Shown: positions 48,800 to 50,632 of the stretch, piece after piece
Numbering within the stretch: position 1 is the first letter of the stretch
Layout of the letters: each line of letters begins with the position of its first letter
Origin: Brasilonema sp. UFV-L1
GTDB taxonomy: Bacteria > Cyanobacteriota > Cyanobacteriia > Cyanobacteriales > Nostocaceae
DNA: 64,000 bases
Direction of reading: 5' to 3'
Assembly (NCBI RefSeq): GCF_012912105.1
Contig: NZ_QMEA01000011.1
Location: forward strand, 25,520 to 89,519
Notes under the pieces: generated by a model
Seen by the model: only the letters and a program-made list of their open reading frames with translations
Database searches by the model: none
Told to the model about the DNA's origin: nothing
Translations under genes and position numbers: made by a program

Positions 48800-48973
48800 A
48801 TGAGTGCTAAAACAAATAAAGAAATGCACATTAATATGGACGATAACTTAAAAAAGCGGTTTCATGCTACCTGCGTTATGCAGAGTAAAAAAATGAACAA
48901 AGTAGTCATTGAGTTAATCCAGCAATGGTTGGAAACAAACGAAATAGGGCTTCCTAATGAAGCAAAGAGCTAA
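48800..48973 (+). CDS. ParG-like ribbon-helix-helix DNA-binding protein
   Basis: 57 residues from ATG 48800 (a frame from 48710 adds an unlikely hydrophobic leader). After a short basic tail the sequence MHINMDDNLKKRFHATCVMQ, then SKKMNKVVIELIQQWLETNE, shows the beta-strand/helix/helix pattern of RHH proteins. It is close to the C-terminal domain of the plasmid protein ParG. No ParF/ParA ATPase is near. It lies 82 bp before the CHAT gene in the same direction, so it may be the repressor of that cassette; this is inferred from position. Confidence 0.72.
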   Translation: MSAKTNKEMHINMDDNLKKRFHATCVMQSKKMNKVVIELIQQWLETNEIGLPNEAKS

Positions 48974-49055
48974 CAAATTACTACTAAATCAGGCATTTGA
49001 ACAGCCAAGTTAGTTATGTAAAAAATTTTCAACTTAAATATAACTGGAGTTATAT

Positions 49056-49958
49056 ATGCAGCAAAAAATCTTGATTTTGACAGCAAATCCGACAAATACC
49101 TCAAGGTTGCGACTGGATGAAGAGGTACGGGAAATTGATGAAGGATTACGACGAGCCAACAAACGGGAGAAGTTCAAGCTAGAGCAGAGGTGGGCAGTGC
49201 GACCGAGGGACATTCAACGGGCAATGTTGGATACTAATCCGCAGATTGCTCATTTTTCAGGTCATGGGACGGGAGATGAAGGTCTGGTATTTGAAGATGA
49301 AACCGGGCAGATAAAGCTAGTCAATGGACTCGCCTTAGCAGAACTGTTTTCACTGTTTGCTGAACAGTTAGAGTGTGTTGTTCTTAACGGCTGTTACTCA
49401 GAAGTGCAGGCGAACGCTATCGCCCAACATATCCCCTACGTCATTGGCATGAACAAGGCAATTGGGGATAAAGCTGCAATTGAATTTGCTGTGGGCTTTT
49501 ACAATGCTCTAGGAGCAGGGAAATCCGTCGAATTTGCTTACAAATTTGGTTGTGCTGCAGTTCGGTTGGCGGGTATTCCAGAACAACTAATCCCAATTTT
49601 AAAGAAGAAGCCAAATACTGAGGAGCCTCCAGTCAATAATGAATCTGTGTCTGAGTCAGATCAAGAACTAAACGACTCTGATAGAGAACTACTCACAAAA
49701 CTCTTAATACGTAGTGGACGTGCGGAATATTCGGCACGAAGACCACTGTGTCTAAAGATTAGAATTGAACCAAATCAACTTGGATTTCTAAGAGAATCTA
49801 CTGTTACTGACTTTGCCTTACAGCTAATTGAGTATTTAAATGAAATAAATGATAAAGAAGCCCTTTGTAAAATTTGCTTTGAACTAGAACTTGTCTTTAA
49901 AAGAGGTAAGTACTCGATTGATTTGGAAAATGTTAAATCAAAACTAAATTGTAACTAA
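49056..49958 (+). CDS. CHAT-domain protease with C-terminal adaptor (EAD-like) domain
   Basis: This is a 300-residue protein. The caspase-like CHAT domain spans about 1-180: MQQKILILTANPTNTSRLRLDEEVREID is a typical start, and the catalytic pair is His70 (AHFSGHG) and Cys113 (VVLNGCYS). After an acidic linker, residues about 208-300 form a helical domain (ELLTKLLIRSGRAE, FALQLIEYLNEINDKEALCKICFEL, VKSKLNCN). It is plainly homologous to the N-terminus of the next protein. Shared adaptor domains of this sort (effector-associated domains) bring a protease and its partner together. The next gene's first ATG overlaps the stop, so translation is coupled. Confidence 0.9.
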   Translation: MQQKILILTANPTNTSRLRLDEEVREIDEGLRRANKREKFKLEQRWAVRPRDIQRAMLDTNPQIAHFSGHGTGDEGLVFEDETGQIKLVNGLALAELFSLFAEQLECVVLNGCYSEVQANAIAQHIPYVIGMNKAIGDKAAIEFAVGFYNALGAGKSVEFAYKFGCAAVRLAGIPEQLIPILKKKPNTEEPPVNNESVSESDQELNDSDRELLTKLLIRSGRAEYSARRPLCLKIRIEPNQLGFLRESTVTDFALQLIEYLNEINDKEALCKICFELELVFKRGKYSIDLENVKSKLNCN

Positions 49959-49975
49959 TGCGCGGAGTTAAAAGT

Positions 49976-50632
49976 ATGTCAACTCAATTCTTTTTAGACG
50001 AAATTGATATAGAAGCATTAGCAAAGCTAATGCTTCGTAGCCAACAATTAAGAACGCGAGAAGCACTATGTCTAAGAATTGGAATAGACCATAGGAGACT
50101 TTGGTTTATCAAAGATTCTTCTGATTCTGACTTTGTTATACAGTTAATTAACCACTTAAATGAAATAGGTAATAAAGAAGCTCTTTGTAAACTTTGTTGT
50201 GAGGAATTATTCCCGATTTTTTGTAATTCAGAAATTCCTACAGATATTTTAAGAAATATTGCAGCAAAACTCCATTGTAACCAAGAGCTTAGCAATAATT
50301 ATTCAAATAGTTCTAAAACTCAAGATTTAACTTTAACTGAAGTTTCAACAAATGGTTCAATTTTTGGTAGAGGTATAAGTACTCTTGTAGCAGGTGCAGG
50401 TCTTGTAGTCTTTTTTGGAGGAGGAGGATTAATTTATTATTTAACATCACAGTCACAGCAACTCCCATTAGGAACCTACCAAGCTACTTGTTCAAATATT
50501 TCTGTAAATGACGGTATTTTGACTGCTACTTGTGCAGATCTTCAAGGTCAACCGAGAAAAAGTAGTCTAGATTTTAAGCTATGTCGTTATGGTATTGAAA
50601 ACCTAAATGGTAGACTGGAATGTAAATCGTAA
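49976..50632 (+). CDS. EAD-like adaptor - transmembrane - cyanovirin-like protein
   Basis: 218 residues from ATG 49976 (GGAG nine bases upstream); ATG 49958, overlapping the previous stop, is the alternative. Residues about 8-102 match the C-terminal adaptor of the CHAT protein: LAKLMLRS, DFVIQLINHLNEIGNKEALCKLCCEEL and IAAKLHCN. One membrane helix lies at about 136-158 (LVAGAGLVVFFGGGGLIYYL). The last 54 residues (GTYQATCSNISVNDGILTATCAD, then QPRKSSLDFKLC) resemble one of the two repeats of a cyanovirin-N homology domain, a sugar-binding fold. It would join a cytosolic adaptor to an outside lectin-like sensor or effector. Confidence 0.82.
   Translation: MSTQFFLDEIDIEALAKLMLRSQQLRTREALCLRIGIDHRRLWFIKDSSDSDFVIQLINHLNEIGNKEALCKLCCEELFPIFCNSEIPTDILRNIAAKLHCNQELSNNYSNSSKTQDLTLTEVSTNGSIFGRGISTLVAGAGLVVFFGGGGLIYYLTSQSQQLPLGTYQATCSNISVNDGILTATCADLQGQPRKSSLDFKLCRYGIENLNGRLECKS

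Follow-up and report, generated by a model that had tools for sequence, protein, structure and literature searches.

Effector-associated domains (EADs) are small terminal domains carried by adjacent genes, for which homotypic recruitment has been proposed (Kaur et al. 2020, 2021; PMC7159879, PMC8195603). As outlined in the same papers, EACC1 systems combine a membrane segment with a caspase gene that has variable ends, EACC2/TRADD-N systems contain a caspase whose variable ends include CHASE2, and further systems carry the lectin-fold domains NPCBM and FGS. An EAD8-linked STAND lectin (EAD8-STAND-CLec) with a trypsin partner has also been reported (PMC10907252), and animal death receptors with caspases are described in PMC8195603. 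Here, we analyze two adjacent genes in a window of 64,000 nucleotides, the whole stretch of DNA under study, from the cyanobacterium Brasilonema sp. UFV-L1 (contig NZ_QMEA01000011.1, positions 25,520 to 89,519). Gene 1 encodes a CHAT-domain protein, gene 2 an adaptor followed by a predicted membrane helix and half of a cyanovirin-type (CVNH) domain, and the two products carry homologous terminal adaptors. We lean modestly toward reading them as a receptor–protease pair, in which an outer module would sense a cue, the adaptors would bind, and the CHAT protease would be activated.

As far as the published descriptions go, the cassette resembles EAD systems in repeating a small helical terminal domain in adjacent genes, in its caspase-like and TIR effectors, and in its variable ends, and here, too, one copy of the adaptor lies beside AAA, vWA, and TIR-EAD1 genes. 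It differs in that the adaptor falls outside the Pfam EAD families, the paired loci need no NTPase, and the partner is an adaptor-membrane-module protein. With EACC1 and EACC2/TRADD-N, it shares the two-gene layout, a caspase-family peptidase, a membrane segment, and variable ends (there including CHASE2 or PBP). However, in their described architecture those systems have a constant EACC domain in common and place the variable end on the caspase protein, whereas here two proteins, joined by a common adaptor, divide the protease and the variable end between them. NPCBM, FGS, and EAD8-STAND-CLec systems likewise have lectin-fold ends proposed as sensors and EAD-linked to a peptidase (PMC8195603, PMC10907252), but in these accounts they are NTPase-centered, mostly read as intracellular, built on other lectin folds, and in some cases diversified by retroelements.

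Results

Homologous adaptors on a CHAT protein and its neighbor

By profile, gene 1 is a member of the CHAT peptidase family, scoring 38.1 bits against Pfam CHAT (cut-off 24) and E 5.5e-24 against the PADLOC "chat" model. All 22 aligned relatives keep its His70 and Cys113, and protease activity is predicted. The C-terminal adaptor of gene 1 aligns with the N-terminal adaptor of gene 2 at 43 of 98 identical positions (E 1e-20), and a profile–profile comparison of 29 CHAT-side with 29 partner-side rows (32 pairs less three divergent ones) scores 99.9% with P 4.3e-36. Both comparisons rule out a chance likeness and bear out the homology between two helical domains that the original prediction had proposed from the sequence. 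The two reading frames lie where it had placed them (Table 1), and where it had described translational coupling or near-coupling, the spacing is close: the conserved start of gene 2 is the ATG at 49976, 17 nucleotides past the CHAT stop, and an alternative ATG at 49958 would overlap the stop of gene 1 by one base.

A Pfam scan of 20 adaptor members returned no convincing family, with EAD8 appearing in six (best E 0.016), EAD7 in one (E 0.044), and EAD1 listed for none. Direct comparison by hhalign, from thin alignments, gave P values of 0.0023 for EAD8, 0.017 for EAD1, and 0.28 for EAD7. Hence, the profiles do not place the adaptor within EAD1, EAD7, or EAD8; the similarity to EAD8 is faint, and a distant kinship to it is possible. 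It is best read as a new adaptor family. The best fold matches of the predicted adaptor structure are death-superfamily chains (CARD and death domains), and a death-domain-like fold is predicted. Several cysteines are conserved in the two adaptors, which are predicted to be cytoplasmic; two are invariant in 20 of 20 rows of the adaptor profile A3, and a metal or redox role for them is possible.

Table 1. Features of the two-gene cassette and its upstream neighbor (positions in the window).
Feature	Position	Strand	Basis or remark
Gene 1, CHAT domain and C-terminal adaptor, 300 residues	49056-49958	+	open reading frame, profiles, alignment
CHAT catalytic domain	49056-49610	+	
His70 codon	49263-49265	+	inside CHAT domain
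Cys113 codon	49392-49394	+	inside CHAT domain
Gene 1 adaptor (EAD-like; residues 205-300), predicted all-helical	49668-49955	+	
GGAG, probable ribosome-binding site for gene 2	49964-49967	+	8 nucleotides before ATG
Gene 2, adaptor, membrane helix, and half CVNH, 218 residues	49976-50632	+	open reading frame, profiles
Adaptor of gene 2, residues 1-103, predicted CARD/death-domain-like fold	49976-50284	+	
Predicted single membrane helix, residues ~133-159	50372-50452	+	hydropathy; adaptor side predicted cytoplasmic
Single CVNH repeat, residues 164-218, four cysteines	50465-50629	+	
Small ribbon-helix-helix (ParG-like) gene, upstream of gene 1	48800-48973	+	Pfam ParG 27.8 bits, cut-off 21.4

Recurrence of the gene pair

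The adaptor profile A3 was run against 388 genomes of the order, and the same adaptor was sought in a separate, class-wide set of 388 genomes; with up to 12 candidates scored per genome, all rates are lower bounds. The order-level survey yielded at least 27 adaptor matches in at least 13 genomes, at no fewer than 16 loci, 11 of which are adjacent pairs of an effector-adaptor and an adaptor-partner protein and five of which are single. In the class-wide sample, the adaptor was found in at least one genome, only that of Brasilonema sp. UFV-L1 itself. Among the best 80 of 529 confirmed CHAT loci, seven carry the adaptor, and all seven have a partner directly downstream. The pair is thus conserved elsewhere, as the original prediction required, and the EAD principle (neighboring genes that carry one and the same small domain, in one case with an effector) holds at 11 of the 16 surveyed loci and at all seven of these adaptor-bearing CHAT loci.

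All 18 paired loci have the effector first and the partner second, the first partner starting at most 41 nucleotides past the effector stop, and the adaptor is C-terminal on the effectors and N-terminal on the partners. Seventeen of the effectors are CHAT proteins, one of them (C302 of the source genome) split over two open reading frames, and one is a TIR protein (L140). In Iningainema tapete (L031), two partners stand behind one CHAT gene, first a half-CVNH protein and then a ricin-type protein, whose match of 23.7 bits lies under its cut-off of 29. For 25 of 53 database partner clusters, the contig size is the same as that of a best CHAT relative, as judged on 119 of 120 rows; this fits linkage but is no proof of adjacency.

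The source genome (8.3 Mb, 337 contigs, 61 CHAT matches) contains two further loci with this adaptor. At C302 (L137, 3270-5139), the cassette occurs a second time; its partner with adaptor and helix is an intact reading frame with an end labeled Ig-like by eye. At C41 (L138, 29-4998), a 491-residue CHAT protein, whose N-terminal part matches no Pfam model besides CHAT, ends in the same adaptor and adjoins genes for AAA, vWA (CoxE-type), and TIR-EAD1 proteins. This locus looks like a ternary conflict system, and its adaptor copy, standing beside those genes, would tie the adaptor to the EAD network.

Adaptor history and shared tails

In another reading, which we consider improbable, the adaptor would only let each protein associate with itself, the genes being neighbors without direct contact, or gene 2 would inhibit gene 1. 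The tree of 98 adaptors is in keeping with it, as the main CHAT-side and partner-side copies split (99/91 and 98/92) into separate clades, so the duplication is old; moreover, three singleton loci (G326, G231, and G297) and C41 have a CHAT-side adaptor with no adjoining partner. However, the partner and CHAT adaptors of L146/L147 and of L143 group together, in a tree built from few columns and with a weak placement of L143 (94/74). This grouping suggests that the pairing arose more than once, which argues against mere self-association.

Co-variation of the two adaptors is suggestive in 32 pairs but not robust, a point that also suits self-association. Cognate adaptors resemble each other slightly more than non-cognate adaptors do (44.7% versus 42.7%, permutation P 0.0001), and a partial Mantel test controlled for the CHAT catalytic domain gives r 0.30 with P 0.012 (0.014 on rerun), or r 0.41 with P 0.003 once five divergent rows are removed. 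The 17 pairs with confirmed adjacency yield r 0.20 and P 0.14, and a subset of 14 among them yields r 0.02 and P 0.47. Because the signal is absent in the confirmed pairs, we do not use co-evolution as proof.

A second point against self-association is that sharing a tail with a neighbor is common among CHAT proteins generally. Homology to a neighbor at the same locus was found for 27 of 53 CHAT tails of at least 50 residues, against 3.2 by permutation (maximum 9 in 5000); these 53 proteins come from the best 80 of the 529 loci, and the rate applies to them rather than to all CHAT genes. The common segments include the present adaptor (seven loci), TIR-like segments (two, by eye), and others. 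At L034, L038, L052, L054, L068, L096, and other CHAT loci, unrelated CHAT proteins share other tails with neighboring genes; some are TIR-like, some about 240 residues long, and some short segments of 24-60 residues.

Membrane helix and single CVNH repeat of gene 2

Of 63 partners, 50 have more positive charge on the adaptor side of the helix, 11 have the same on both sides, and 2 have less; in the predicted topology, the adaptor faces the cytoplasm and the end module faces outward. The structure model of gene 2 has low confidence at the membrane helix, and it shows a long, poorly ordered linker that joins adaptor and helix.

The C-terminal 54 residues cover only the first half of CVNH (positions 1-49 of 102), scoring 24.2 bits against Pfam CVNH, just under the cut-off of 24.5, and 30.1 bits against the NCBIfam mannose_binding_lectin model (cut-off 80). 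They match a tandem cyanovirin in the PDB at E 6.4e-7, and their predicted structure has a CVNH-type fold. The half-CVNH end named in the original prediction therefore stands, as a single repeat in place of two tandem ones. Truncation by frameshift is ruled out, as 12 of 13 half-CVNH proteins stop after this one repeat and the 13th (P0008) is a shorter record that seems to be truncated. Nor must the half domain dimerize: the single repeat folds alone in the model, which aligns over chain ranges that span a whole CVNH, and dimerization may occur but would not be required. Compared with cyanovirin-N lectins, gene 2 differs in having one repeat rather than two, an extra cysteine pair, and a predicted membrane tether. 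At the level of sequence, then, three features of the two genes are established: a CHAT domain in which His and Cys are invariant, homologous adaptors, and a single CVNH repeat.

With residues 106-218 as query, in a search limited to proteins of similar length, seven of seven matches fell within this partner family. The nearest predicted viral structures to the half CVNH are giant-virus cyanovirin-domain proteins (Foldseek E 1.2e-4 to 4.2e-4).

Interchangeable end modules

The partner set comprises 71 entries, 53 from databases and 18 from the loci, some of them identical proteins. By similarity past the helix, they fall into eight groups plus singletons, with some links formed via the linker alone, and their ends are of about 16 kinds, including lectins, CHASE2, GUN4, and TPR. 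Half CVNH accounts for 13 database clusters. The ends also include ricin B (P0018, 78.8 bits), CHASE2 (L146, 195 bits), GUN4 (L147 in the Pfam scan; P0026, P0036, P0039, P0042, and P0044 by precomputed annotation), TPR (P0037 and P0045, by precomputed annotation), and a PLL propeller lectin-like end (L029, E 2.4e-7 against a solved relative). One further end is PllA-like by its solved relatives (E 0.0055), with PA-I lower (E 0.21). Others we take to be ConA-like, trefoil-like, or Ig-like, names given by eye from sequence patterns and unconfirmed: no convincing solved relative was found for the ConA-like and trefoil-like groups, and the Ig-like members P0020 and L139 have no Pfam model above cut-off. 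A similar end module, beginning QIYTIVT and recognized by eye, occurs in L035 (3115-4179), fused straight to CHAT, and in L142 (3561-4529), on an adaptor protein; it is uncharacterized.

Mapped onto the adaptor tree, 16 end labels on 62 rows require 33 changes, against a floor of 15 and a shuffled mean of 43 (lowest 38), so the ends partly track ancestry yet are often exchanged. The sequences compared here likewise establish that the gene order is tight, that the pair recurs, and that the outer module is exchanged. A cyanovirin-specific system is ruled out, as only 2 of the 19 partners from the 18 paired loci end in CVNH. Of the original view, in which a glycan sensor or effector would be wired to a protease through like adaptors, the homology, the CVNH repeat, and the conserved pair remain; its focus on the lectin does not, because half CVNH is one of about 16 ends, and the unit is therefore a general adaptor-membrane-module cassette.

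The variable end could instead be a payload, with CHAT cutting its adaptor-bound partner and freeing a lectin or other domain to block or tag an invader. Readings of this kind have been put forward for EACC1 and VMAP systems, whose variable ends are taken as effectors, and the lectin-fold domains of FGS are considered possibly neutralizing, in the passages of PMC7159879 that deal with them. The long, poorly ordered linker of gene 2 would suit such a cut. However, the scan of 22 partner proteins gave no enzyme domain above the Pfam threshold, CHASE2 is among the ends, and the end is predicted to lie across the membrane from the protease. We give the payload reading little credence.

Genomic surroundings

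The interval of the original prediction begins with a separate ribbon-helix-helix gene (Table 1), on which it did not remark. By profile, a ParG-like gene lies within 700 nucleotides upstream at 6 of 23 adaptor loci, compared with 1 of 73 other CHAT loci, and tblastn adds a relative at L030 and a fragment at L141. It stands just upstream of the effector in the window and at L025, L026, L027, L030, L140, L141, and L144, and it may regulate transcription of the cassette.

Around 18 loci, 92 of 100 neighboring reading frames were scanned, the eight of C41 being left out. PADLOC assigned one or two reading frames per family (among 25 of 33 families listed, E <= 1e-5), and the Pfam matches are mostly to ordinary genes, with CHAT in three (among 25 of 113 families listed); location in a defense island is not supported by these neighbors. 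Gene 2 has no match in phage or plasmid collections at E 1e-5; gene 1 was not searched there. The mostly ordinary neighborhoods and the lack of phage and plasmid matches to gene 2 would fit a receptor–protease pair that serves development, self-recognition, or symbiosis, responding to own or neighbor polysaccharide rather than acting in defense or suicide, and the GUN4 and CHASE2 ends suggest physiological cues. Yet the patchy spread of the adaptor through the order and the frequent exchange of ends resemble the evolution of conflict systems, and we rate such a role as rather unlikely, if less so than a payload or mere self-association.

Discussion

Returning to the receptor–protease pair, which we slightly favor overall, the single CVNH repeat, predicted to face outward, would sense a glycan or another cue. 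The inner adaptor of gene 2 would bind the CHAT-side adaptor, a contact predicted because the adaptors are homologous and follow the EAD principle, and this contact would cluster and activate the CHAT protease in the cytoplasm. We infer that the resulting proteolysis would end in suicide of the cell or in some other response. In support of the receptor reading are the homology of the adaptors, the repeated close succession of effector and partner genes, the lectin and sensory ends, the lack of an enzyme domain among the scanned partners, the charge pattern around the helix, the death-fold matches of the adaptor, and, in the wider CHAT set, the tails that match a neighbor.

In animals, the receptors FAS and TNFR1 act upstream of caspase-8. 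The likeness of the cassette to them is one of working design: an ectodomain, one membrane helix, a cytoplasmic adaptor, and a caspase-fold effector, with helix and topology here predicted. The cassette differs in having no FADD-like middle adaptor, and we claim neither sequence kinship nor membership. By this analogy, it is likely a simple bacterial counterpart of the animal death receptor. A bolder version credits filamentous cyanobacteria with genuine two-component death receptors. In it, single-pass proteins would combine swappable lectin or small-molecule ectodomains (half-cyanovirin being one of some sixteen) with a cytoplasmic death-fold domain that directly recruits CHAT, and the whole would amount to a bacterial extrinsic-apoptosis pathway; we advance this tentatively, with our doubts outweighing our confidence.

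The EAD pairing principle is known, whereas the adaptor family, the adaptor-membrane-module architecture, and the half-CVNH end are new; the number of lectin-type ends also sets the cassette apart from the published systems. In the open-access literature, we found no paper joining a CHAT domain with cyanovirin, a CHAT domain with CHASE2, or SAVED-CHAT with a lectin, which is weak evidence; for a CHAT protease with a lectin, a single review on fungal cell death came up. To that extent, the combination of half CVNH and CHAT is undescribed, as originally supposed, but the principle of paired EADs, a caspase, and variable ends is already in print.

If the receptor–protease reading is true, bacteria would have, in its shortest form, the logic that leads from receptor to caspase in animal extrinsic apoptosis, with the two halves encoded by one small operon and a recognition module exchanged like a cassette. 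The cyanovirin-, PA-IL-, and PLL-type lectin modules of cyanobacteria would then gain a signaling role. The gene pair offers a minimal, laboratory-tractable system in which to ask whether a CHAT protease is switched on by homotypic contact between adaptors, and shared-tail pairing, as seen for 27 of the 53 CHAT tails, may be a general guide to how CHAT proteases are controlled.
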